From contig NZ_JADDXW010000005.1 of assembly GCF_017183135.1 (NCBI RefSeq), forward strand, positions 186,001 through 250,000: a stretch of DNA of 64,000 nt. Direction: 5' to 3'. Source of the DNA: Aurantimonas marina (GTDB lineage: Bacteria > Pseudomonadota > Alphaproteobacteria > Rhizobiales > Rhizobiaceae). This document shows, one piece after another, positions 7,238 to 53,118 of this stretch (its first letter is position 1; the number at the start of each line of letters is the position of its first letter). Position numbers and translations under genes: made by a program. Below the pieces are notes generated by a model that ran no database searches, had not been told where the DNA came from, and saw nothing but the letters and a program-made list of their open reading frames with translations.

Positions 7238-8293
7238 GTGGCTGAATTCGTCTCCCTCTATGTCTGGCCGGGCCTGATCATTCTGGCGCAGAGTCTTCTG
7301 TTTCTTGTCGTCCTGCTCGTGCTCGTCGCTTATATCCTGTTGGCAGACCGCAAGATCTGGGCGGCGGTGCAGATGCGTCGTGGTCCCAATGTCGTCGGGC
7401 CCTGGGGGCTGTTCCAGTCCTTCGCCGATTTGCTGAAATTCGTCTTGAAGGAGCCGGTGATCCCGGCCAGCGCGGACAAGGTCGTGTTCCTGCTGGCGCC
7501 CCTGGTCGCCGTAACGCTGGCGCTCGCTACCTTCGCCGTCGTGCCGGTCGCCGAGGGCTGGGTGATCGCCGACATCAACATCGGTATTTTGTACGTCTTC
7601 GCGATCTCGTCGCTCGAAGTCTATGGCGTCATCATGGGCGGTTGGGCGTCGAACTCGAAATACGCCTTTCTCGGCGCGCTTCGCTCCGCCGCGCAGATGG
7701 TTTCCTACGAGGTCTCGATCGGCTTCGTCATCGTCACCGTGCTTCTGGCCGTTGGCTCGCTCAATCTCACCGACATCGTGCTGGCCCAGCAGGCCGGTCT
7801 CGGAACCATGGTCGGCCTGCCGAGTACCTTCCTCGACTGGCACTGGCTCGGCCTGTTCCCGATGTTCGTCATCTTCTTCATATCGGCCCTCGCAGAGACC
7901 AATCGGCCGCCCTTCGATCTCCCAGAAGCTGAGTCCGAGTTGGTCGCGGGTTTCATGGTCGAATACGGCTCGACGCCATACATGATGTTCATGCTCGGCG
8001 AGTACGCGGCGATCACGCTGATGTGCAGCCTGACGACCATCCTGTTCTTGGGGGGCTGGCTTCCGCCTTTCAACTTCGTGCCGTTCACCTGGATTCCGGG
8101 GGTCGTCTGGTTCCTAGCCAAGGTTGCGCTGGTGTTCTTCATGTTCGCGATGGTCAAGGCTTTCGTGCCGCGCTATCGCTACGACCAGTTGATGCGGCTC
8201 GGCTGGAAGGTGTTCCTGCCGATCTCGCTTGCCATGGTGGCGATCGTCGCCTTCGTCATGCAGTTCATGGGCTGGGGCGCGGCGGCCGCATGA
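7238..8293 (+). CDS. nuoH: NADH-quinone oxidoreductase subunit H
   Basis: NuoH (ND1 type) is the membrane subunit that joins the peripheral arm and contributes to the quinone chamber. It has about eight hydrophobic helices. Family motifs include [20 protein letters not shown] near the N-terminus and [22 protein letters not shown] in the middle. It starts with GTG 7238, supported by AAGGA about 9 nt upstream. The 351 residues are typical. Its stop overlaps the start of a small membrane-protein gene (ATGA). Confidence 0.97.
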
Positions 8294-24856: not shown

Positions 24857-25774
24857 ATGTTGTCCTTTGAGGAATACGTCACGCCGCGCGACCTGCGGGA
24901 AGCGCTGCAGGCAGCCGGCAAGCTGCCCGCGGACGGCAAGATCATTGCGGGCGCGACGGATGTCCTGCCCTATGCCCGCGAGGGCCGGGGCGGTGACGTG
25001 CATTATTCGACTGTCGTCGATCTGAGTCGGGTCCGCGAGTTCCAGGGTTACGAACACGTCGGCAACCGGGTTCGGCTCAACGCCAATGTCGCCTTTCAGG
25101 CTTTTCTGACCGACTCCGTCCTGCGCGAGCATCTGCCCTGTATGCCCTATTGCGCGATCTGGTTCGCCGACGACCAGGTGCGCGAGCAGGCAACCTTGGC
25201 GGGCAATATCGCCAATGCGTCTCCAGCGGCGGATGGCGTGCCACCGTTGCTCGCGCTGAATGCGGATGTGGAGCTAGCGTCTCTGGAAAGTGGCGAAATC
25301 CGCCGGCGCACAACCCCGATCGGCGAATTCATTCTTGGTCCCGGCCGCACCGCGATGCGAGCCGGAGAACTGATCAGCGCCGTGATCTGCGAATCAATGC
25401 GCGGCTACGGCGGCTCGTTTCAAAAAGTGGGCCAGCGACGCTCTCTCGTCATCTCCAGGGTCTCGGCCGTCGCGTTGGTCAAGACCAATGCCGTGGGCAA
25501 CGTCTTCGAAGACGTCCGGCTGGCCCTCGGCGGGGTCGGTCCCGTGCCCGTTCGGCTGCACGATATCGAGACCATGCTGATCGGCCAGCCCATCACCCGC
25601 GAGCTGGTGGCCGAAGCCAGCGTGATGCCGGCTGAGCGCGTCGCTTCGCGCTCGCGGGTCGCCTATCGCCGGCGGGTCGTGACCGGCTTCGTCGAGGCCG
25701 CGCTGGAAGACGCGCTCGTTGCGTGCGGCGCGCCGGTTCCAAGTGCTGAGCAGAGGGAAGCAGCCCATGTCTGA
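24857..25774 (+). CDS. FAD-binding (medium) subunit of a xanthine dehydrogenase-family molybdenum hydroxylase
   Basis: The subunit passes electrons from the iron-sulfur subunit through FAD. It has the PCMH-type FAD fold: the IAGATDVLPYAREG loop near residue 34 and ATLAGNIANASPAADGVPPLLAL near residue 115 hold FAD, and a CO-dehydrogenase-flavoprotein C-terminal domain follows (VGQRRSLVISRVSAVAL). The 305 residues are typical. Its stop overlaps the next gene by 8 bp, consistent with one enzyme complex. Confidence 0.92.
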   Translation: MLSFEEYVTPRDLREALQAAGKLPADGKIIAGATDVLPYAREGRGGDVHYSTVVDLSRVREFQGYEHVGNRVRLNANVAFQAFLTDSVLREHLPCMPYCAIWFADDQVREQATLAGNIANASPAADGVPPLLALNADVELASLESGEIRRRTTPIGEFILGPGRTAMRAGELISAVICESMRGYGGSFQKVGQRRSLVISRVSAVALVKTNAVGNVFEDVRLALGGVGPVPVRLHDIETMLIGQPITRELVAEASVMPAERVASRSRVAYRRRVVTGFVEAALEDALVACGAPVPSAEQREAAHV

Positions 25775-43636: not shown

Positions 43637-43960
43637 CTATGGGCCGATTTCTTCACGGCAGCGCCAGCTTTCGACCACGACCTTGGCTTCGGCCAGCAGC
43701 CAGTAGAAGATATCGCCGTTCAGGAGTTCGTCCCGGAGCCGGGCGTGGAAGCTCTCGCAGTAGCCGTTCTCCCAAGGATTGCCAGGTTCGATGAACGCGA
43801 ACTTTGCGCCGACGGCGACGATCGATTCCGGCACTGCCTTGGCGAAAAATTCCGGCCTGTTGTCCGATCGTATGTGACCCGGCGTGCCGCGCAGGATGAA
43901 GAGGTCTGTCAAGGCGTTGATGACTCTGGTCGAGTTCAGCTTGCAGTCGATCCGGGCGAA
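43637..43960 (-). pseudogene. IS3-family (IS407-like) transposase OrfB, remnant
   Basis: About 105 residues of the integrase core are recognisable: IDCKLNSTRVINALTDLF, GTPGHIRSDNRPEFFAKAV, FIEPGNPWENGYCESFHARL and DELLNGDIF, which hold the second Asp and the Glu of the DDE triad. The N-terminal catalytic part and the C-terminal end are missing, and the frame runs into unrelated sequence on both sides. DNG has become DNR beside the catalytic Asp. It marks past mobile activity between the copper and redox clusters. Confidence 0.8.
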
Positions 43961-44056
43961 GGGCATTGCTTGGGGACGGCGGCCTCCGATAGGCTCTTTT
44001 GAAGCCGCGCCGCGGCCTCCGGCCAAGCGGTATTCGCATGCTGAAGCCAGGCCGCC

Positions 44057-44665
44057 TCACATCGTTCCGCTGACGGTCGTCAGACCCAGTATTTTCCAGG
44101 CCTGCATGCCACCGCGATAGTAGAAAATTCGGTCAGCCGGGTAGCCTTCCCTCAACATGGCCTGAATTGCCGTGGGCGATTGCCCACACCAGAGGCCATT
44201 GCAATAGAGGGCGACCCGCATCGCGCCGCTGCAATCCCAGGCTCCGGCCGCACCGACGCACCCGAGTTCGTCGAGACGGCCCGCCACTTCGGTGTAGGGA
44301 ATATGCGTCGAGCCGGGGATCGTTTCCTCCAGGTGCCATTCCAGTGTTCGCGCGTCGATGACGCGGACGTTCTCATCGGCCAGCATATCGAGGAGTTCCA
44401 GTTCACCGATCGTCTCGACGCCGTCGGCAGCCCGGGCCGGTTGGATGCAGAAGGGCGGGCATTCGCGAGATGTCTTGGCGTAATAGCCGCTGACCTCGTT
44501 GTCCGTGTCCTGGATCCGCTCGATGACGACCGGCCCCTCGTCGGTTTCCACGGTCACGCTAGGAACGTCGGGGCTGATCTTGACGGCCGGCTCCTGGCTT
44601 GATGCGGGAGCAGTGGCCGCCACCGATACCATCATTGAAACAGCGACGCCGACGAGCCAATGCAT
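44057..44665 (-). CDS. Periplasmic rhodanese-like protein
   Basis: ATG 44665 follows GGGAGA and gives 202 residues with a signal peptide (VGVAVSMMVSVAATAPASS). The rhodanese fold spans about residues 85-195, with VRVIDARTLEWHLEETIPGSTHIPY and the active-site loop YCNGLWCGQSPTA, whose first Cys is the usual sulfur carrier; the second Cys lies four residues on. An extra CPPFC pair sits before the domain. It resembles rhodanese-like proteins linked to PQQ or cytochrome systems. The partner is unknown. Confidence 0.8.
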   Translation of the reverse strand: MHWLVGVAVSMMVSVAATAPASSQEPAVKISPDVPSVTVETDEGPVVIERIQDTDNEVSGYYAKTSRECPPFCIQPARAADGVETIGELELLDMLADENVRVIDARTLEWHLEETIPGSTHIPYTEVAGRLDELGCVGAAGAWDCSGAMRVALYCNGLWCGQSPTAIQAMLREGYPADRIFYYRGGMQAWKILGLTTVSGTM

Positions 44666-44871
44666 GTCATTTCTCCCAAAGCTTCGGTTCACCGCCGAAT
44701 TCTTACGCCATCATGGCTTGGAGCCCAACCCCTGAGTGACAAGAGTTTTCAGCATGTCGTGATGTCCTGAAGGTCGCGAGACGGCGCGGGGGCGGGTGCA
44801 GATTACGGCAGATCATCTTCGTCCCACCGCCCCCTCTCGTAATCGGGAGGCGCGTATGCAGAACGATGGTC

Positions 44872-46212
44872 TCAGTCCGGTTGTCGACCGATCGGCGCCT
44901 TGAACGATGCCGCAAAACCGTCCGCCCGGCCCGGGGCGGGCGATTGCAGCGTGAGCGTCGCCTGTGCCCCGTCCGCAATGGCCTTGGCGATCGACAGGCC
45001 CAGCCCGCTGCCCTCCGATATGGCCTGACCCCGCTCGAAACGCGCCGCCAGCCGCGTCAGCGTTTCGGGTGGGACGGCAGGGCCGTCGTTGATCACGCAA
45101 AGGACGCGGTCCGCTGTCAGGATCACCCGAACCGGAGCGTCGCCGGTGCCGTGGCGCTGCGCATTCTCGATCAGGTTGCGGGCGAGAATCGCAAAGGTAT
45201 CGGGGTCGATATCCGACAGGACCGGGTCGTCCGGCAGTTCGAAGTCGATGCGCTTTTCCTTGGCAATCCCTTCAAGATCCGAGACCACCATGCGCAGCAC
45301 GGGGCGCAGGTCCGCCGCAGTCTCGCGCCGCAATCGCCCGCCCTCGGCTCGGGCCAGTTGCATCAGCTTCTCGGATAGCCGCGTCAACCGTTTGAGGGCG
45401 GTCTCGATCTCGCCGGCCCTTTGGCCCACGGCGGGATCGGGGATTTCCGTCATCAACCTTTGAGTCTGTGCCAGCGCCGCCGCCACGGGAGTGCGCAATT
45501 CATGCGCGGCATTGGCGGTGAAGTTACGCTCGGCCTCCAGCGTACGCCGCAGCCGGTCCAGCAGCTGGTTGACGGCCTCCGCCACCGGCAGGATCTCATT
45601 TGGAAGATTGCTGTCGCCAACCTCGGACAGATCGCGGGCACCACGGCTGGCCAGCGCGCGGCTGAACCGGCGAACGGGCCGCAAGCTGCGCCGGACGATC
45701 ACCAGCACCCCGAGAAGGCTGATCGGAATGACGAGGATCAGGGGTAGAGCGAGGCCAGCCAAAGCCTCGCGCGCCACGTCGGCACGGTGGCTCAATGGCT
45801 CGGCGACGGTGATGGTGATCGTGCCTTGCAGCGCCGCGTCGTAGTAGAGCCGATGCGTCTTCGTCTGGCGAAAACCCATGCCATCGAATGCCGGAAAGAC
45901 CACGTCCTCGGTCCCGTGCGAGCGCAACAGCACGCGGTCCTGGTCGTCGCGCACGATGTAGGTGAAGAGCTCCTCGTGGCTTCGCAGGGTGGCGATGCGC
46001 TGGCTGACGCCCTGCTCTTCGCGGCCGATGATGTCCATCACCGCCAGCGGCAGGATGCGTTGGGCGGTTTCCTCAAGCGCGGAATCGAACACCTCGTTCA
46101 TCTCGCCGCGCAGGATGGTGGCCGTCGCCCATGCCGTTGCCAGCCAGAGCAGAGTCAAGCCCAGTCCCAGCCCAAGCGCCAGCCGTGCCTGTAGTGAGCC
46201 CGGCCATCTCAT
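44872..46212 (-). CDS. Sensor histidine kinase (OmpR-partner type)
   Basis: The 446-residue kinase has two membrane helices (about residues 8-30 and 155-175) around a periplasmic sensor of about 120 residues, a HAMP segment (RRSLRPVRRFSRAL), the HisKA phospho-acceptor (NAAHELRTPVAAALAQ) and a catalytic domain with N box LARNLIENAQRHG and G box EGSGLGLSIAKAIA. ATG 46212 overlaps the response regulator stop (ATGA). It is the partner of that regulator and faces the redox cluster it probably controls. Confidence 0.95.
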   Translation of the reverse strand: MRWPGSLQARLALGLGLGLTLLWLATAWATATILRGEMNEVFDSALEETAQRILPLAVMDIIGREEQGVSQRIATLRSHEELFTYIVRDDQDRVLLRSHGTEDVVFPAFDGMGFRQTKTHRLYYDAALQGTITITVAEPLSHRADVAREALAGLALPLILVIPISLLGVLVIVRRSLRPVRRFSRALASRGARDLSEVGDSNLPNEILPVAEAVNQLLDRLRRTLEAERNFTANAAHELRTPVAAALAQTQRLMTEIPDPAVGQRAGEIETALKRLTRLSEKLMQLARAEGGRLRRETAADLRPVLRMVVSDLEGIAKEKRIDFELPDDPVLSDIDPDTFAILARNLIENAQRHGTGDAPVRVILTADRVLCVINDGPAVPPETLTRLAARFERGQAISEGSGLGLSIAKAIADGAQATLTLQSPAPGRADGFAASFKAPIGRQPD

Positions 46213-46868
46213 GCCGCGCCCAGCCGATAGCCGAAGCCGCGCACCGTCTCGATCCAGTCGCGCCCCAGCTTCTTGCGCAACCGGCTGACATGGACCTCGA
46301 TCGTGTTGCTCTCGATCTCGGTCTCGAAGGAGTAGAGCCGTTCTTCGAGCTGCGCCTTGGACAGGATCTGCCCGGGCCGCTGCACCAAGGCCTCGAACAA
46401 CACCCATTCGCGGGCGGTCAGGGGCACGGCCCTGCCGCCCCGCCGGACTGTTCTTGCCGCAAGGTCGATTTCCAGATCCCCCAGCGTGATCAGCGGGTTG
46501 GGGTTGCCGGAATAGCGCCGGGCGACAGCATTCAGTCGCGCCGAGAGCTCGGAGAGATCGAAAGGTTTGACCATGTAGTCGTCGGCGCCGGCGTTCAGCC
46601 CCTCGATCCGGTCGCTGATCTGGTCGAGCGCGGTCAGGATGATCACCGGAGTCACGTCGCCTCGCACCCTCAAGGCGCGCAAAAACGGCTGGCCGCGCCC
46701 ATCGGGCAGCATCAGATCCAGCAAGATCAGGTCGTAGACCGCCACTCCAAGATATTCGCTCGCTGCGTCAAGCCGCGTCGCCCAGTCGACGGAATGGCCG
46801 TCGGCGGCGATCTGGTCGCGCACCGCGGCGCCCAGCACCGTGTCATCCTCGATCAGCAGCACACGCAT
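46209..46868 (-). CDS. OmpR/PhoB-family response regulator
   Basis: The receiver domain has the acidic pair in LLIEDD, the phospho-acceptor Asp in LILLDLMLPDG, Thr in ILTA and Lys in MVKPFDLSEL. The C-terminal winged helix (TAREWVLFEALVQRPGQILSKAQLEERLY, then VHVSRLRKKLG and VRGFGYRLG) is the QseB/PmrA-like type. The 219 residues are standard. Its start is 145 bp from the divergent PepSY gene, with putative binding sites between. Confidence 0.96.
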   Translation of the reverse strand: MRVLLIEDDTVLGAAVRDQIAADGHSVDWATRLDAASEYLGVAVYDLILLDLMLPDGRGQPFLRALRVRGDVTPVIILTALDQISDRIEGLNAGADDYMVKPFDLSELSARLNAVARRYSGNPNPLITLGDLEIDLAARTVRRGGRAVPLTAREWVLFEALVQRPGQILSKAQLEERLYSFETEIESNTIEVHVSRLRKKLGRDWIETVRGFGYRLGAA

Positions 46869-46925
46869 GTCGTTCCGGTCCCATTCGCTCTATCGGTCCC
46901 GTATTCACTGCGAAACTTACAGGCA

Positions 46926-46965
46926 CCTGACGCGAAGAGTCGGCGTGCTTCAGGTCGCCGTCAGA
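46926..46965. promoter_or_regulatory. Putative response-regulator operator, copy 1 (divergent promoter)
   Basis: CCTGA (46926-46930) is followed 19 nt later by TCAGG (46950-46954) and, 11 bp on, TCAGA (46961-46965). The same spacing occurs upstream of the genes at 48176 and 49076. Direct half-sites 11 bp apart are the usual binding pattern of OmpR/PhoB regulators. The site lies between the divergent regulator and PepSY genes, so it could serve both. Confidence 0.6.
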
Positions 46966-47012
46966 ATAGCGCGCGAAAAGGGCGCATCACCACCCGTTAC
47001 GGGAGACGGAAA

Positions 47013-47399
47013 ATGAAGAAATCCCTGATGGCCGTCGCACTTCTGTCGGGCGTTGTCGCGGCCGGGGCCGCCCATGCCGATGATGACGATTGCAATGTCC
47101 CTATGGCCAATTGGCAACCGCGCGAGGCGGTCCAGAAGATGGCCGAGGCGCAGGGCTGGACCGTGCGCCGGATCAAGACCGATGACGGCTGCTATGAGAT
47201 CGATGGCCGCGACGCAAAGGGTCGTCAGATCGAGGTTACGGTCGATCCCGGCACGCTGGCAATCGTCGAGACGGAGTATGACGACGAGGACGACGCGGGC
47301 AACCGGCCGGAAAGGAACGCCACGCCCGCCGGAACGGTGGCGCCGCCGGATAGCGGTCTGTTCACCCCGGGCAGCAAGCCCGGCATGGTCGTCGAGTGA
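47013..47399 (+). CDS. Secreted PepSY-domain protein
   Basis: A 128-residue protein with a signal peptide (MAVALLSGVVAAGAAHA) and one PepSY domain: PREAVQKMAEAQGWTVRRIKTDDGCYEIDGRDAKGRQIEVTVDP. The tail is acidic (EYDDEDD) then Pro/Gly-rich. Single PepSY proteins of this kind are often paired with a cytochrome b561. GGAGA precedes ATG 47013. The stop overlaps the cytochrome start as TGATG. Confidence 0.9.
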   Translation: MKKSLMAVALLSGVVAAGAAHADDDDCNVPMANWQPREAVQKMAEAQGWTVRRIKTDDGCYEIDGRDAKGRQIEVTVDPGTLAIVETEYDDEDDAGNRPERNATPAGTVAPPDSGLFTPGSKPGMVVE

Positions 47400-48013
47400 T
47401 GACCCGCGTCTGGGGTCCGGTAGTGCGCCTGTTCCACTGGGCGCTGGTGGTAACTTTCGCGATCGTCTGGCTGACAGCGGACGAGCTTCAGCGGGTTCAC
47501 GAAATCGCAGGCTACGTTGTGGCGGGCCTCGTCGCGTTCCGGTTGGTCTGGGGCCTTTTCGGCAGCCGCTACGCGCGCTTCGCGCAGTTCCTGCGCGGTC
47601 CGGCCACGACGCTCGCCTATCTGGGCGACATGGCGAGGGGGCGAGAACGCCGCTATCTCGGCCACAACCCGGCGGCCGCGGCGATGATCGTGGCGCTGCT
47701 CGTCACGCTATCCGGCACCGCCTTCTCTGGCTGGCTAATGGAAGAGCCGAGCCGTGTCGCGATGCTTGCCGGCCTGCCGCATATCGTTACTGCCGCCCAT
47801 GCCGACGAGGAGGGCGACGAAGCCGGGTATGGTGAAGCGGAAACGAACGGGCCGCTGAAGGAAGTGCACGAGACGCTCGCCAACTTGATGCTTCTCCTCA
47901 TTGCGCTGCACGTAGGAGGCGTGGTGCTTGCTTCGTTCCGCCATCACGAGAATCTCACCCGCGCCATGATCACGGGCAACAAGCGCGCGCCCGGCCCCGG
48001 TGATATCGCCTGA
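47399..48013 (+). CDS. Cytochrome b561-family membrane protein
   Basis: A 204-residue haem b membrane protein with four helices. Candidate haem histidines lie in RLFHWALVV (H13), LQRVHEIAGY, KEVHETLANL and IALHVGGVV. A His/Asp/Glu-rich loop (HADEEGDEAGYGEAE) lies between helices 3 and 4. ATG 47399 overlaps the PepSY stop; a GTG one codon earlier is less likely. It would move electrons between a quinone or flavoprotein and a periplasmic acceptor. A terminator follows 42 bp after the stop. Confidence 0.92.
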   Translation: MTRVWGPVVRLFHWALVVTFAIVWLTADELQRVHEIAGYVVAGLVAFRLVWGLFGSRYARFAQFLRGPATTLAYLGDMARGRERRYLGHNPAAAAMIVALLVTLSGTAFSGWLMEEPSRVAMLAGLPHIVTAAHADEEGDEAGYGEAETNGPLKEVHETLANLMLLLIALHVGGVVLASFRHHENLTRAMITGNKRAPGPGDIA

Positions 48014-48054
48014 CCCTGTTCTCAAGTGCCACGTGTCCCTCGGCCTGGACTGAG

Positions 48055-48079
48055 CCCTGCCTGCGTGGCGGGGTTTTTT
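48055..48079 (+). terminator. Rho-independent terminator after the PepSY-cytochrome b561 pair
   Basis: CCCTGCC (48055-48061) pairs with GGCGGGG (48067-48073) across a 5-nt loop, with one G-T pair, and is followed by six T residues (48074-48079). The next operator begins at 48080. Confidence 0.75.
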
Positions 48080-48130
48080 CCTGACAACAAGCTGAAGCAG
48101 AAACGTCTGCGTTGTCAGGAAGCCCTCAGG
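48080..48130 (+). promoter_or_regulatory. Putative response-regulator operator, copy 2
   Basis: Half-sites CCTGA (48080) and GCTGA (48091) are 11 bp apart in one orientation; TCAGG (48115) and TCAGG (48126) are 11 bp apart in the other. The outer arms form the 9-bp inverted repeat CCTGACAAC/GTTGTCAGG. The whole block through the ribosome binding site is strongly similar to that at 48981-49031. The last half-site lies where a -35 element would be, as in PhoB-type activation. Confidence 0.65.
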
Positions 48131-48175
48131 TGGCGTCGCCAAATTGACCTTATCGGTTCAAAGGAGACCCACACC

Positions 48176-48823
48176 ATGAAAACGAATCCAGGAAAAGGCG
48201 CGCTTCTATCGAAGGCAACGATCATGCGCACGTCATTCGTCGTCTCTGCCGTCGCCGCGTCCGTATTCGCCGCGACGGCTTCGGCAGATCCCCTTGAAAT
48301 CCCGTACCTGCTGAGCGCGGCCCATGCGGACTTCCTCACGCAGCTCGAGGAAGTTGCCGGCACACCGGGTCAGATCGGCGGTGCGGCCCGCGCTGCGGCC
48401 GATCTTCTGGGCCCCCACATCGAGGCGGAGGAGAGGGCCGTCTTACCATCCCTCGGGCTCATCGAAGAGGTCACGGAAGGAAAGGCCGTGGCAGGGTCTC
48501 TGCCGACATTGGCGAGCCTGCAGGCGGAACTGCCCCTGCTGATCGACGGTCAGATAGAGGCCATCGGCGCGCTGGCAGAGCTGTACGCTGCGGGAGATGC
48601 GGGAGACCGGCCGGAGGTGTCGCGTCTTGCCGAGAGGATCATCTGGCACGAGATGAGCGATGCGGAGTTTCTCTATCCGGCGGCCGTTCTTGTCGGCTCT
48701 ACCGCCCGCGCGGCCGAGGTCGATGCGTCTGAGAGCCAGAGCGACCCGGCGCCGCTCTACGGCCGTGACCCGATCCCGATGATGGGGCTGGGTAACCCGC
48801 ACGCGCTCCACGCCCCTCAATGA
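48176..48823 (+). CDS. Exported hemerythrin-like protein
   Basis: A 215-residue protein with a signal peptide (residues 17-37). The mature part is predicted all-helical, with hemerythrin-like metal residues: H50 (AAHADFL), H81 and E85 (GPHIEAEERAVLPSL), and H158 with D162/E164 (WHEMSDAEFLYPA). The usual third-helix histidine is not seen; E128 is near its place. Hemerythrins bind a di-iron site for oxygen, NO or redox sensing, but exported ones are rare and the ligand set here is incomplete. AAGGAG precedes ATG 48176. Expression probably depends on the upstream two-component operator. Confidence 0.7.
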   Translation: MKTNPGKGALLSKATIMRTSFVVSAVAASVFAATASADPLEIPYLLSAAHADFLTQLEEVAGTPGQIGGAARAAADLLGPHIEAEERAVLPSLGLIEEVTEGKAVAGSLPTLASLQAELPLLIDGQIEAIGALAELYAAGDAGDRPEVSRLAERIIWHEMSDAEFLYPAAVLVGSTARAAEVDASESQSDPAPLYGRDPIPMMGLGNPHALHAPQ

Positions 48824-48853
48824 ACCAACGGCCCTCGTGTAGCGGGTTCCGCG

Positions 48854-48878
48854 AAGGCCGGCCGTTGCGGCCGGCCTT
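48854..48878. terminator. Strong hairpin after the hemerythrin-like gene
   Basis: AAGGCCGGCCG (48854-48864) pairs perfectly over 11 bp with CGGCCGGCCTT (48868-48878) across a 3-nt loop. Only two T residues follow, so termination may be partial. It separates the hemerythrin-like gene from the next regulated promoter. Confidence 0.65.
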
Positions 48879-48980
48879 CCGTGACGCCGGCAAACCGCGG
48901 ACGATGACCATCCGAACCGCGATGATAGTCGCCGTCCCGGCAAGAACGCCAAACTGCGTGCCGATCGACCATTTTCTTTG

Positions 48981-49031
48981 CCTGACACCAAGCTGAAGCG
49001 GAAACCGCGTCGCTGTCAGGAAACCCTCAGG
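48981..49031 (+). promoter_or_regulatory. Putative response-regulator operator, copy 3
   Basis: CCTGA (48981) and GCTGA (48992), then TCAGG (49016) and TCAGG (49027), reproduce the spacing of copy 2 exactly (11, 24 and 11 bp). Similarity to copy 2 extends through the putative -10 region to the AAGGA of the ribosome binding site, which points to a duplicated promoter. It precedes the Asp-rich protein gene and probably drives the DUF2271-reductase-ApbE genes beyond it. Confidence 0.65.
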
Positions 49032-49075
49032 TGCCATCTCCAGACTGATCCCATCGGATACAAGGAAACCTCGCC

Positions 49076-49411
49076 ATGCGTAAACCTCTCGCCCTGCTTG
49101 CCACCACGGCACTGACGCTCGCCGCCATCGGCGTGCCCGCCTGGAGCGCGCTGCAAACCCCGCCCGACGGCGAGGAAAGCAGCTTTGCCGCATTCGTCCA
49201 CGATGGAGCGGAGTCGCTTCAGTTCCTCCTCGTCAGCGACGAAGATGATGACGATCGCCGGCGGTCCAGCCACCGCGAAGACGACGAAGACGACGATGAC
49301 GACGATGATGACAGCAACAGCGCACGCAATCCCGCGCCGGCCAAGTCCGTTGCGCCGCCGCAGAACCCTCTCTTCGGCAACGGCGCCGCGCCGCAGGTCC
49401 AAGTGAACTGA
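49076..49411 (+). CDS. Secreted Asp-rich protein
   Basis: A 111-residue protein with a signal peptide (LLATTALTLAAIGVPAWSA) and a mature part dominated by an acidic run: SDEDDDDRRRSSHRED, then a tract of eight Asp (residues 72-79), ending in a Pro/Ala/Asn-rich tail (NPLFGNG). Similar acidic secreted proteins accompany PepSY and cytochrome b genes in other alphaproteobacteria. Cation binding is a guess from composition. It follows operator copy 3 and precedes the DUF2271 gene by 49 bp. Confidence 0.75.
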   Translation: MRKPLALLATTALTLAAIGVPAWSALQTPPDGEESSFAAFVHDGAESLQFLLVSDEDDDDRRRSSHREDDEDDDDDDDDSNSARNPAPAKSVAPPQNPLFGNGAAPQVQVN

Positions 49412-49460: not shown

Positions 49461-49931
49461 ATGAAGTTTGTTTTAGCAACGCTCGCGCTGACGACAGCGC
49501 TGACGTTTCCCAGCCTCGCCATGGCGCGCCCTGTCGTGCTGACGACGACGCTCAACACCTATGGCGGCGATGGTGCCTATCTTGCCTACTATGTCACCGA
49601 TGCGCAGGGCGCCTATGTCGGCAGCCTCTGGATGGCTGGCGGCAAGTCGAAGTACTACGAGCACCTCTCGGACTGGTACCGCGCCACCGGCGGTGACCCG
49701 GCCCAGATCAACGGCATCACCGGCGCCAGCGTGGGCGCGGGTCGGCAGCTGAAGATCACGCTCGATCTGGCCGATGCGCTGTTCGATGCGGGATATGAAC
49801 TGCACGTTGACGCGGCGGTCGAGGACATGCGCGACAGTCCGAACGAGATAGCCGTGCCGCTGACGACGAACGGCGCAAATACGCCGGTCCGCGGGCGCCG
49901 CTACATCGCCAACTTCAGCTACGGCATGTGA
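49461..49931 (+). CDS. DUF2271 family secreted protein, probably flavinylated
   Basis: A 156-residue protein with a signal peptide (residues 1-22, ending LAMA) and the DUF2271 fold (YLAYYVTDAQGAYVGSLWMAGGKSKYYEHLSDWYRAT). INGITGASVG resembles the [S/T]GA[S/T] motif to which ApbE attaches FMN; the Ser would be the acceptor. Family members occur beside PepSY reductases and ApbE and have been proposed as flavinylated redox carriers. The gene is followed 12 bp later by the reductase and then by apbE. Confidence 0.85.
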   Translation: MKFVLATLALTTALTFPSLAMARPVVLTTTLNTYGGDGAYLAYYVTDAQGAYVGSLWMAGGKSKYYEHLSDWYRATGGDPAQINGITGASVGAGRQLKITLDLADALFDAGYELHVDAAVEDMRDSPNEIAVPLTTNGANTPVRGRRYIANFSYGM

Positions 49932-49943
49932 GGAGGCGAGGTC

Positions 49944-52151
49944 ATGCTCCGGGCGCTCCATCGCTGGCCGGGCCTCGTGGCTCTGGCTCTCGTCACCGTT
50001 CTGGCGCTCAGCGGGGCGGCGCTGTCCGTCTTTCCGGCGGCGGAGCGCCTCGCTGCGCCGCAGGCGGAAGCCGGTCTGACCGTGGCCGACCTCGCTTCGC
50101 GCATCCAGGCTGTCTATCCTGGCGTCGAGCAGATCCGCCGCGCACCGTCCGGCCGGATCACCGCCTACTGGTTCGATGCCGGCACGCCGGGCGCCGCGGT
50201 CATCGATCCGGCTACGGGAGAGGGGATCGCTTCGGCTGACCCCAACCAGACCGAGCGCTGGCTGACCAACCTGCATCGCTCACTGTTCCTCGGGGACGGC
50301 GGACGCATCACCATGGCGGCGGCCGCTTTGGCGATGCTCGTCCTTTCGGTTTCCGGGGCGCTTCTGGTCGCGCGGCGGGCAGGTGGGTGGCGCCGCTGGT
50401 TCTCCCCGCTGCGCGGTCCGATGCCAGGCCGCCTGCATGTGGAGATCGCCCGCGTCGCGGTGTTGGGCCTCGCGCTCTCTTCAGCCACCGCGCTCTGGAT
50501 GACGGCCTCCACCTTCGATCTTTTACCCGACGGCGGAGTGCCGCTTGCCGTCCCGTCCGAGATGAGCGGCGAAACTGGCGTGGCGCTCGGTGCGATCGAC
50601 CTGCTCGGCGGAACCCCGACCGCGGAACTTCGCGAACTGAACTTTCCCTATCCCGGCGACGCAACCGATATCTTCACGCTGAAGACCGACCGGGGCATCG
50701 GGTATCTCGATCAGGGCACGGGCGCACTACTTGGCTGGACTGACCTGACCGGGTGGGAGCGCCTCTCGGAAACGATCTACATGCTGCACACCGGCCAAGG
50801 AGCGGCAACGCTGGGGCTGGTGCTCGGGCTGATGGCTCTCGGCGTGCCGGTGATGGGCGGAACCGGGATGGTGCTGTGGTGGGCGGGGCGGCGGAGCAGG
50901 CCGCAGATCCACGCCAACCAGCCAGCTTCCCGGGCCGAAACGATCATTCTGGTCGGCAGCGAGGGTGGCAGCACATGGAGCTTTGCCGCGACGCTGCACA
51001 AGGCGCTGACGGATGCGGGCCAGAGCGTTCATGCTGCACCGATGTCGGCCTTCGATCCGGCCCGCTACACCCGCGCGCAGCGGATCGTCGTTCTCGCCGC
51101 GACCTATGGCGACGGCGATGCGCCGGCATCGGCAAGAGGGTTCCTCGACCAGGTCGCGCAGCTCGAAGCGCCGCCCGCCGCAGCTTTCGCGGTGCTGGGT
51201 TTCGGTGACCGCAGCTTCCCGGCCTACTGCGCCTTCGCCCGCGTCGTTGCCGAGACTGCCGAGGCGCGGGGCTGGAAGATGCTGCTGCCGTTCGACACGG
51301 TCGACCGCCAGTCGCCGCAGGATTTCGCCCGCTGGGGCCGGGCGCTCGGCACCGCCATGGAGATCGAACTCGAGCTCGGCCACCAGCCGGTTCTGCCGGC
51401 GACAGAGGCGCTGACCCTGATCTCGCGCCGCGACTACGGGGCCGAGGTGCAGGCGCCGACCGCAATCCTGCGCTTCGCCCCGCCCACGGCCTCGCTCTGG
51501 AAGCGCGTGCTCGGCCGCGGCTTCGGAGGCTTTCGGCCCGGCGATCTTCTGGGCATCGTCCCCGACGGATCCGCCGTGCCCCGGTTCTACTCGCTCGCTT
51601 CGGGACGCGGCGATGGCTTCGTCGAAATCGTGGTCAAGAAGCACCCCGGCGGTCTTTGCTCCGGGCAGCTTCTCGACCTGCAACCGGGCGACAGCATGCC
51701 GGGCTTCATACGCCGCAACCCCGCGTTTCGGCCCGCGCGAAACCACAAGCCGATAATCCTCATCGGCGCTGGGGCAGGCATCGGACCACTTGCCGGATTC
51801 GCGCGGGCCAATCGGCGCGCCCGGCCGATGCACCTGTGGTTCGGCGCCCGGCACCCCGACAGCGATTTTCTCTATGGCACGGAGATCGCCGGTTGGCGGA
51901 CGGAAGGCCGGCTTGCCTCTATCACGACCGCGTTCTCACGGACGGAGCAGCGGGCCTATGTCCAGGATGCGCTGCGAAGGGACGCCCCGAAGGTCGCGCG
52001 ACTGATCGCCGACGGCGCGCAGGTGCTGGTCTGTGGCGGACGCGACATGGCTGCAGGGGTGGCGGAGGCGCTGACGGATATCCTGACCCCGCAGGGTTTG
52101 ACACCTGCGATGTTGAAAGCGGAGAATCGCTATGCCGAGGACGTTTACTGA
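49944..52151 (+). CDS. PepSY membrane domain fused to flavodoxin and FNR-type reductase
   Basis: The 735-residue protein begins with a PepSY-TM domain of four helices (near residues 10-30, 115-135, 165-185 and 285-305), with histidines at HRWPGLVA, NLHRSLF, HVEIARVA and MLHTGQGA suited to haem binding. A flavodoxin domain follows (about 330-470; ATYGDGDAP, VLGFGDRSF), then a ferredoxin-NADP reductase domain (about 490-735; RFYSLASG for FAD, IGAGAGIGPLAG and VCGGRDMAAGVAEAL for NADPH). It would carry electrons from cytosolic NADPH across the membrane to a periplasmic acceptor such as the DUF2271 protein. GGAGG precedes ATG 49944. Confidence 0.93.
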   Translation: MLRALHRWPGLVALALVTVLALSGAALSVFPAAERLAAPQAEAGLTVADLASRIQAVYPGVEQIRRAPSGRITAYWFDAGTPGAAVIDPATGEGIASADPNQTERWLTNLHRSLFLGDGGRITMAAAALAMLVLSVSGALLVARRAGGWRRWFSPLRGPMPGRLHVEIARVAVLGLALSSATALWMTASTFDLLPDGGVPLAVPSEMSGETGVALGAIDLLGGTPTAELRELNFPYPGDATDIFTLKTDRGIGYLDQGTGALLGWTDLTGWERLSETIYMLHTGQGAATLGLVLGLMALGVPVMGGTGMVLWWAGRRSRPQIHANQPASRAETIILVGSEGGSTWSFAATLHKALTDAGQSVHAAPMSAFDPARYTRAQRIVVLAATYGDGDAPASARGFLDQVAQLEAPPAAAFAVLGFGDRSFPAYCAFARVVAETAEARGWKMLLPFDTVDRQSPQDFARWGRALGTAMEIELELGHQPVLPATEALTLISRRDYGAEVQAPTAILRFAPPTASLWKRVLGRGFGGFRPGDLLGIVPDGSAVPRFYSLASGRGDGFVEIVVKKHPGGLCSGQLLDLQPGDSMPGFIRRNPAFRPARNHKPIILIGAGAGIGPLAGFARANRRARPMHLWFGARHPDSDFLYGTEIAGWRTEGRLASITTAFSRTEQRAYVQDALRRDAPKVARLIADGAQVLVCGGRDMAAGVAEALTDILTPQGLTPAMLKAENRYAEDVY

Positions 52152-53118
52152 TCTGGTTCGCCACGCGCTGAATGGGCCAACCATGGGCACCCGCTGGTCG
52201 GCGCTATTCGATGCATCGCCCGCTACGGACCCCGTTCCGATCCGTTGCGCGTTGGCCGAAAGCGTGGGCCTGTTGGATCGCCAGATGTCCACCTGGAAGC
52301 CCGATAGCGACCTGATGTGTGTCAATCGCGCGCCGGTGGGTGAATGGGTTTCGGTCCCTCCCGAACTGATGGAGGTTTTGGCCCGTGGCCTCGAGATCGG
52401 GCGGCTGTCCGGCGGGGCGTTCGACATCGGCATGGGCGATGTCGTCACAGCCTGGGGGTTCGGGCCGCAGCATGCGGACCCACAGGCGATGCGGGTAGCC
52501 CTGGGCAGGGCCCACGCCTTGGCGCATGAGGTTCTCGAGCTTGACGGCGATGCGCTGAGGGTTCGCAAACACGCGCCCATGACGCTGGACCTGGCGGGCA
52601 TCGCCAAAGGTTACGCCGTCGATCGCATGATGGCGGTGCTGGGGCGTTTCGGGATCACGGATGCCCTGGTGGGGCTCGATGGCGAGATGCGCGCATGCGG
52701 TCGGCGCGCCGATGGCCGCCCCTGGACGGTGGCGCTGGAGCGGCCCGACTTTGAGACGCGCGCCCCACTCTCGATCCTGGAACTTGCCGATTGCGCGGTG
52801 GCGACATCCGGTGACTACCGACACTGGCTTGATGTTGGCGGACGGCGCCTGTCCCACACCATGGACCCGGCTCGCGGCGGCCCCGCGACGGGATCGCCGG
52901 CATCGGTCACCGTGCTGGCGGAAAGCTGCATGGACGCGGACGCCTGGGCCACGGCTCTCATGGTACGGGGCGCGCGCGCAGGGCTGGAGATCGCACGACA
53001 TCGCGGGTTGAAAGCGATTTTCATCGAACGTGTCGGCGAGACCTTGCGTCAGAGCCGCGTCGGATGGATGGACCGGAAGGAGCATCCGGCTGCGCACTCA
53101 CCAGTCGTTGACGCCTGA
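52132..53118 (+). CDS. apbE: ApbE-family FAD:protein FMN transferase
   Basis: ApbE moves FMN from FAD onto a Thr or Ser of target proteins. The 328 residues show MGTRWSALFD, LVGLDGEMRACG, and HTMDPARGGPATG with the metal-binding Asp region MDADAWATALMV. The start ATG 52132 overlaps the reductase by 20 bp and has GGAG upstream. The N-terminus MPRTFTDLVRHALNGPTMG has no signal peptide or lipobox, although ApbE usually acts outside the cytoplasm. The natural target is the DUF2271 protein two genes upstream. Confidence 0.93.
   Translation: MPRTFTDLVRHALNGPTMGTRWSALFDASPATDPVPIRCALAESVGLLDRQMSTWKPDSDLMCVNRAPVGEWVSVPPELMEVLARGLEIGRLSGGAFDIGMGDVVTAWGFGPQHADPQAMRVALGRAHALAHEVLELDGDALRVRKHAPMTLDLAGIAKGYAVDRMMAVLGRFGITDALVGLDGEMRACGRRADGRPWTVALERPDFETRAPLSILELADCAVATSGDYRHWLDVGGRRLSHTMDPARGGPATGSPASVTVLAESCMDADAWATALMVRGARAGLEIARHRGLKAIFIERVGETLRQSRVGWMDRKEHPAAHSPVVDA

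Follow-up and report, generated by a model that had tools for sequence, protein, structure and literature searches.

A four-part TCAG operator unit predicted to serve a PmrA-like two-component system and a flavin-based electron-transfer cluster in Aurantimonas marina

The window analysed here is a 64,000-nucleotide stretch of the Aurantimonas marina genome (NCBI RefSeq assembly GCF_017183135.1, contig NZ_JADDXW010000005.1, positions 186,001 to 250,000, numbered from 1 below). It contains a redox gene cluster in which a response regulator and a sensor histidine kinase are encoded divergently from a small PepSY protein and a cytochrome b561-type protein, followed by genes for a hemerythrin-like protein, an Asp-rich protein, a DUF2271 protein, a PepSY_TM reductase and ApbE (Table 1). 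Three promoter regions of this cluster contain the same arrangement of TCAG half-sites, which we propose to be the operator of the neighbouring regulator.

The half-sites are located at 46927 (CTGA), 46950 and 46961 (TCAG) in copy 1; at 48081 and 48092 (CTGA), 48115 and 48126 (TCAG) in copy 2; and at 48982 and 48993 (CTGA), 49016 and 49027 (TCAG) in copy 3. The inner gap is 19 nt and the tandem period 11 bp in all three copies, and both the spacings and the positions upstream of the genes at 47013, 48176 and 49076 are those given by an initial annotation of this DNA. The annotation confined an outer inverted half-site to copies 2 and 3, where it is exact, but copy 1 has one too, a CTTA at 46916-46919 that is one base off. 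The unit therefore consists of four half-sites in all three copies: two tandem pairs with an 11-bp period, facing away from each other across 19 bp (<-<- N19 ->->). Copies 2 and 3 also resemble each other beyond the half-sites: they share 25/33 of the non-half-site bases inside the unit and 29/49 downstream, compared with only 11-12/33 and 9-13/49 between copy 1 and the other two (11/33 and 13/49 against copy 2). Copies 2 and 3 thus look like a promoter duplication and are best counted as one event. A head-to-tail half-site pair with an 11-bp period, as in operators of the PmrA/BqsR type, is found in the three copies and in their relatives; the TTAAG half-site of such operators is not, nearly all half-sites having a TCAG core.

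Table 1. Predicted regulatory elements and genes of the cluster (window positions).
Feature	Position	Strand	Remarks
Operator unit 1 (CTTA/CTGA inverted + TCAG/TCAG)	46916..46964		regulator-PepSY intergenic region; predicted role in both directions; same place in 16/16 family loci
Operator unit 2	48081..48129		upstream of hemerythrin-like gene; four exact half-sites
Operator unit 3	48982..49030		upstream of acidic-protein/DUF2271 operon; four exact half-sites
Predicted -10 of regulator promoter, AATACG	46900..46905	-	A at 12th base after outer half-site; start near 46893
Predicted -10 of PepSY promoter, GAAAAG	46975..46980	+	A at 46976; start near 46987
Predicted -10 after unit 2, CAAATT	48140..48145	+	A at 48141; start near 48152
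Predicted -10 after unit 3, CAGACT	49041..49046	+	A at 49042; start near 49053
Sensor histidine kinase, QseC/PmrB-like	44872..46212	-	2CSK_N, HAMP, HisKA, HATPase_c (domain matches)
Response regulator, PmrA/QseB/BqsR-like	46209..46868	-	recognition helix SNTIEVHVSRLRKKLG (Ser195-Arg196); the units are its presumed binding sites
Small PepSY_2 protein, 128 aa	47013..47399	+	candidate kinase modulator by analogy with DbfQ
Cytochrome b561-type membrane protein	47399..48013	+	domain match
Hemerythrin-like protein	48176..48823	+	weak Pfam Hemerythrin match; 48% relative at same place on Defluviimonas plasmid
Small Asp-rich protein	49076..49411	+	positional counterpart on Defluviimonas plasmid annotated PepSY
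DUF2271 protein with TGAS motif	49461..49931	+	predicted flavinylation substrate
PepSY_TM + flavodoxin + NAD-binding reductase	49944..52151	+	predicted transmembrane electron transfer
ApbE, FAD:protein FMN transferase	52132..53118	+	domain match

The pattern is confined to the cluster. All genome-wide statements refer to pattern searches of the 4.03-Mb genome. The exact pattern CTGA-N19-TCAG-N7-TCAG has five matches, all within the three promoters (copies 2 and 3 match in both directions), so the motif is not equally frequent elsewhere in the genome. Allowing one mismatch gives 21 matches, the five exact ones and 16 others; one of the 16 is the reverse reading of copy 1, and two are both readings of one site inside a 796-residue open reading frame (ORF). 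Within the window, CTGA-N19-TCAGG-N6-TCAG with up to two mismatches has six matches; 100 shuffles gave 1.19 on average, and one of them reached six. The site at G000:C45:252929 (two mismatches) was rejected for its position within the 796-residue ORF.

The unit is conserved together with the regulator. We sampled 121 genomes of the family. A regulator at least 74% identical to that of A. marina is encoded in 16 of them (the next best is 64%), and 16/16 of these have a unit with at most two mismatches separating the regulator from the divergently oriented PepSY gene, 42-47 bases from the regulator start (91 in one). Fourteen of the 16, all but L075 and L077, have a further downstream unit, which precedes DUF2271, acidic-protein or hemerythrin-like genes; in G055 the genes behind the second unit are lost at a contig end. 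Of the 56 exact three-half-site matches in these genomes, 50 are inside the cluster. When gaps of 0-79 were allowed, 21 of 22 exact four-half-site matches had a gap of 19 and one had a gap of 20. Loci added later gave the same picture: a unit stands beside the regulator in 20/20, comprising 15/15 named genomes (gap 19 in 12 and 20 in three), among them Iodidimonas, Roseovarius, Stappia and Rhizobium johnstonii 3841 (L157), and 5/5 plasmid loci (gap 20 in four). Within the DNA stretches compared, a second unit is present in 8/15 named genomes and 4/5 plasmid loci. The local regulon proposed by the initial annotation is thus supported by comparison: the unit, the regulator and the PepSY and DUF2271 genes recur together in the family, the named genomes and the plasmids.

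A separate array was seen in locus L073 (G107:C8), where CTGA, CTGA, TCAG, TCAG and a degenerate TCAA follow each other at 7464-7512 in steps of 11, 12, 11 and 11. No homologue of the cluster was found within this 16-kb locus, and the array is a possible distant target of one of the group 2 regulators described below.

A single flanking base distinguishes the sides of the unit that face a gene. Counted outwards from the outer TCAG, base 12 is A at 15/15 loci towards PepSY, at 15/15 sites towards the DUF2271, acidic-protein or hemerythrin-like genes and at 15/15 towards the regulator, but at only 2/15 where the flank of a second-type site faces no gene; there is no other invariant column in the columns shown for the four flank sets. 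The sets include the window's own sites and omit L068, as L067 has an identical regulator. With L068 re-included and gaps of 18-21 allowed, A is found in 16/16, 16/16 and 17/17 gene-facing flanks and in 3/17 gene-less ones. In the loci added after the rule had been noticed (15 named genomes and five plasmid loci, three of the latter much alike), A occupies this position on 51/53 gene-facing and 0/13 gene-less sides. Among regulators of 53-64% identity that have a box, A is at base 12 in 15/15 towards PepSY despite a variable gap (19, 30, 38, 40, 41 and 49, one locus each), and in 5/5 on the regulator side at loci with both half-sites exact. Eight other TCAGG-N6-TCAGR matches in the A. marina genome, all overlapping ORFs of at least 120 residues, have A at base 12 in 1/8; a ninth, at window position 25771, has T.

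We read the fixed A as the -11A of a -10 element that starts 11 bases after the tandem pair, with the pair replacing the -35 element. PhoB and BqsR provide precedents: the pho box of E. coli stands in for the -35 at a set distance to the -10, and the downstream BqsR pentamer overlaps the -35. The arrangement may be that of a class II (PhoB-like) activator promoter: in the first sets all 45/45 gene-facing flanks have the A, although the starts are predicted and the hexamers otherwise weak. On this reading each tandem pair is a promoter module. The single operator geometry of the initial annotation is indeed common to the three copies, but the pairs look like individual modules, each having a -10 distance of its own: copy 1 would be a divergent promoter, and copies 2 and 3 would fire in one direction and keep an accessory pair.

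The regulator adjoining copy 1 has the domains of the OmpR/PhoB family (Response_reg, PF00072, 1.8e-23; Trans_reg_C, PF00486, 2.6e-22), as the initial annotation had recognised. It is nearest to PmrA and QseB yet scores below the cut-offs of those families (209.7 bits against 330 for the PmrA/BasR equivalog PRK10643 of NCBIfam); its best sequence matches in the PDB are BasR/PmrA, and it aligns without gaps to PmrA over residues 1-216. By its sequence, the regulator is a relative of PmrA and not PmrA itself. We compared it with two further sets. Regulators of 53-64% identity come from 26 distinct loci, of which 15 have a TCAG box within 220 bases (group 2) and ten do not (group 2x); a 9-of-10 match at base 182 of L094 was not counted as a box, L109 was excluded (53%, no box, a different helix), and L132 is the same place as L072, which was used. 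Group 3 consists of 14 loci with regulators of 46-49% identity, picked by a perfect TTAAG-N6-TTAAG pair. Among them, a paralogue in the A. marina genome itself (L106, G000:C12:195309-195959, 48%) has a TTAAG-N6-TTAAG box before its gene and provides a built-in comparison of box specificity in the same genome. Five more regulators of 46-50% identity with a His-x helix (L108, L110, L113, L123 and L133) have no perfect box in their own promoters.

Residues 195-196 are Ser-Arg in 31/31 regulators with a TCAG box and His-His, His-Asn or His-Lys in 14/14 with a TTAAG box. TTAAGG is in register with TTCAGG, from which it differs by one base per half-site. In the crystal structure of PmrA bound to DNA (PDB 4s04), Asn196 reads bases and His195 touches them, and PhoB Arg201, the equivalent of PmrA Asn196, reads guanine (PMC4660055, PMC3973317). 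The Ser195-Arg196 pair fits the change of half-site from TTAAGG to TTCAGG. Separately, regulators of 41-46% identity (L125, L135, L137, L138, L139, L140, L144 and L145) have tandem TGACAG boxes with an 11-bp period and an Arg at the place of residue 196.

Taken together, we consider it likely, with a probability of about 0.88, that the unit is the operator of the neighbouring two-component regulator and activates the promoters of the cluster together. The sequences themselves show the unit with its place and conservation, the fixed A and the restriction to the cluster; from these we infer that this regulator binds and activates. A dimer of the phosphorylated regulator would bind each TCAG-N7-TCAG pair, and the bound pair would replace the -35 in the manner of PhoB and BqsR. 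At copy 1 the back-to-back pairs would drive divergent promoters, one for the regulator and kinase (positive autoregulation) and one for PepSY and cytochrome b561. In copies 2 and 3 a -10 would follow just the pair that faces the gene, and the other pair would be kept as an accessory dimer site. The output would be a flavin-based transmembrane electron-transfer set consisting of DUF2271, the PepSY_TM reductase, ApbE, a b-type cytochrome and the hemerythrin-like protein. A broader scenario, to which we give even odds, is that residues 195-196 changed from His-x to Ser-Arg in a PmrA-like lineage, which moved its half-site from TTAAGG to TTCAGG, and that this lineage assembled a portable unit of 49 bp with two opposed dimer sites. 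The A at base 12 would decide which sides of the unit are promoters, the regulon would grow by copying of the unit, and the set would cross orders on conjugative plasmids.

Several observations weigh against this interpretation. The predicted -10 hexamers match TATAAT poorly except for the A. Both misses of the base-12 rule are in L164 (68% regulator), which has a gap of 20 and A at base 13 on both sides. The gap itself is 20 at copy 1 of L153, L154 and 4/5 plasmid loci, and at one further site of L070. The second unit is not universal, being present in 26/36 loci and lacking from 10/36 in the DNA stretches compared. G117 has no close regulator, and its two copies of the DUF2271 operon keep the tandem TCAG pair (A at 13) without the inverted pair, so a tandem pair can be older than the regulator or remain after its loss. 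The match behind the hemerythrin label is below threshold (PF01814, E 0.0087, 17 bits against a gathering score of 25.3). As for the recognition residues, their match to the half-sites is a single tree split (support 100/100) and counts as one event; the box groups were chosen for having a box; 18 further alignment columns also separate the TCAG-box and TTAAG-box groups; 10/25 of the mid-distance regulators (group 2x) have Ser-Arg with no box in their own promoters; and an earlier docking model of PmrA had Asn196 without DNA contact and favoured His193 and His195 (PMC4660055, PMC3973317).

We weighed three other explanations. The regulator might bind the unit and repress, with the signal lifting repression, and sequence alone cannot separate repression from activation. 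The predicted layout, in which the -10 stands at a constant distance and the box covers the -35, is that of class II activation, and BqsR, which has the same 11-bp pair over the -35, is an activator (PMC4682146); we consider repression improbable. Secondly, the units might be sites of PhoB, or of some other PhoB-like regulator that all these genomes have. The half-sites of a pho box are TGTCA-like with the same 11-bp period (in E. coli, two 11-nt direct repeats with a CTGTCAT core, as described in the sources compared), and the outer half-sites here are often GTCAG. Among the relatives, however, TTCAG and GTCAG are mixed, and the units stand at an almost constant distance from the regulator start. 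The unit is also concentrated in the 16 genomes with a close regulator: the other 105 family genomes have 71 exact three-half-site matches (two of them in a related cluster of G118), or approximately 0.7 each, which we take as background. A reversed-pattern control (four matches in 121 genomes) falls below this level and was set aside as too lenient. Nearly all of the 105 genomes also lack the target operon, so their low count is not a clean test of a PhoB-like regulator, and we regard this explanation as very improbable. Finally, the inverted half-sites could form an RNA hairpin (leader attenuator or terminator), as the arms of copies 2 and 3 are complementary (CCTGAC.../...GTCAGG), but we rejected this, because 12/256 half-site pair cells deviate in 32 family sites and 0/12 stay paired, the predicted starts are downstream of the unit, and the mid-distance relatives vary the gap freely.

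The genes served by the predicted operator form a recognisable set. PepSY_TM, DUF2271 and ApbE genes together make up a PepSY-like flavinylation cluster; DUF2271 proteins are flavinylated by ApbE, and transmembrane electron transfer, perhaps to reduce iron, has been proposed for the PepSY-like reductases (PMC8238504). The small PepSY protein adjoining the kinase and regulator gives the arrangement of a DbfQRS-like module, and such a protein can control the kinase beside it, as DbfQ does (PMC12714742). The condition sensed by the kinase, via or with PepSY_2, is inferred to concern the envelope, metals or redox state, and the kinase would then turn on the electron-transfer set and itself. The structure model of the hemerythrin-like protein is unusable (mean pLDDT, 41.7). 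Its gene is matched in only 2/121 family genomes (A. marina and G071) and is therefore a rare addition; three hemerythrin-like genes that do not adjoin such a regulator (L231, L233 and L238) have no unit. The product of 49076-49411 looks exported and has long Asp runs; given the annotation of its Defluviimonas counterpart, it may be a diverged PepSY protein. At the cluster edge (43637-44060), pieces resembling an IS3-type transposase were seen by eye in the ORF translations, beside a rhodanese-domain gene (44057-44692).

By sequence comparison, the cluster is mobile. A regulator match at E<=1e-80 occurs in 88 plasmid records, of which 62 are typed conjugative. The closest regulator found is that of Iodidimonas (order Iodidimonadales) at 91%, compared with a maximum of 81% in the family sample, and a genome of the same genus (G041) has neither a close regulator nor the reductase. 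The plasmid loci that we examined are four of the 88 records plus a Defluviimonas plasmid found via the hemerythrin-like protein; the latter has the same gene order, including the hemerythrin-like gene (48% identical), and three units. A repC or ParB-family gene is situated within 4 kb in three of the examined plasmid loci (which include L232, L234, L235 and L236).

Among the closest known systems is BqsR/BqsS from Pseudomonas aeruginosa, with the operator TTAAG-N6-TTAAG, in which two direct pentamers have an 11-bp period and the downstream one overlaps the -35; some BqsR promoters have four pentamers (PMC4682146), and the PepSY proteins PA2658 and PA2659 are encoded beside BqsR/BqsS (PMC12714742). 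In contrast, the unit described here has TTCAGG/GTCAG half-sites and a second pair in inverted orientation at a gap of 19 (or 20) bp, and would target an electron-transfer set with DUF2271 and ApbE. PmrA/BasR likewise binds two head-to-tail half-sites (PMC4660055, PMC3973317), but has His195-Asn196 for Ser-Arg, and its half-site has A for C. In DbfQRS of Vibrio cholerae a small periplasmic PepSY protein is encoded beside the kinase and regulator; modules of this type are reported to be widespread, some with the genes on opposite strands, but the parts of PMC12714742 compared describe no such operator, whereas the PepSY gene here is divergent and shares a predicted operator with the regulator. 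For the flavinylation clusters, the regulation named in the compared parts of PMC8238504 is by Fur, whereas that proposed here is by a dedicated two-component system. We found no publication on this operator or regulator in the literature searched, subscription journals being mostly outside the search. The operator appears to be a variation on the PmrA/BqsR/PhoB kind; the base-12 A rule would be new.

The analysis points to a likely dedicated regulator, with exact predicted starts, for a flavin-based periplasmic electron-transfer system that the compared parts of the literature link only to Fur. It also suggests a simple way to distinguish dimer sites active as promoters from accessory ones, and a candidate natural specificity switch in the PmrA/BqsR family, involving one base per half-site and two residues. 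If the broader scenario is true, the regulon expands by copying the unit before new genes, here the hemerythrin-like gene.

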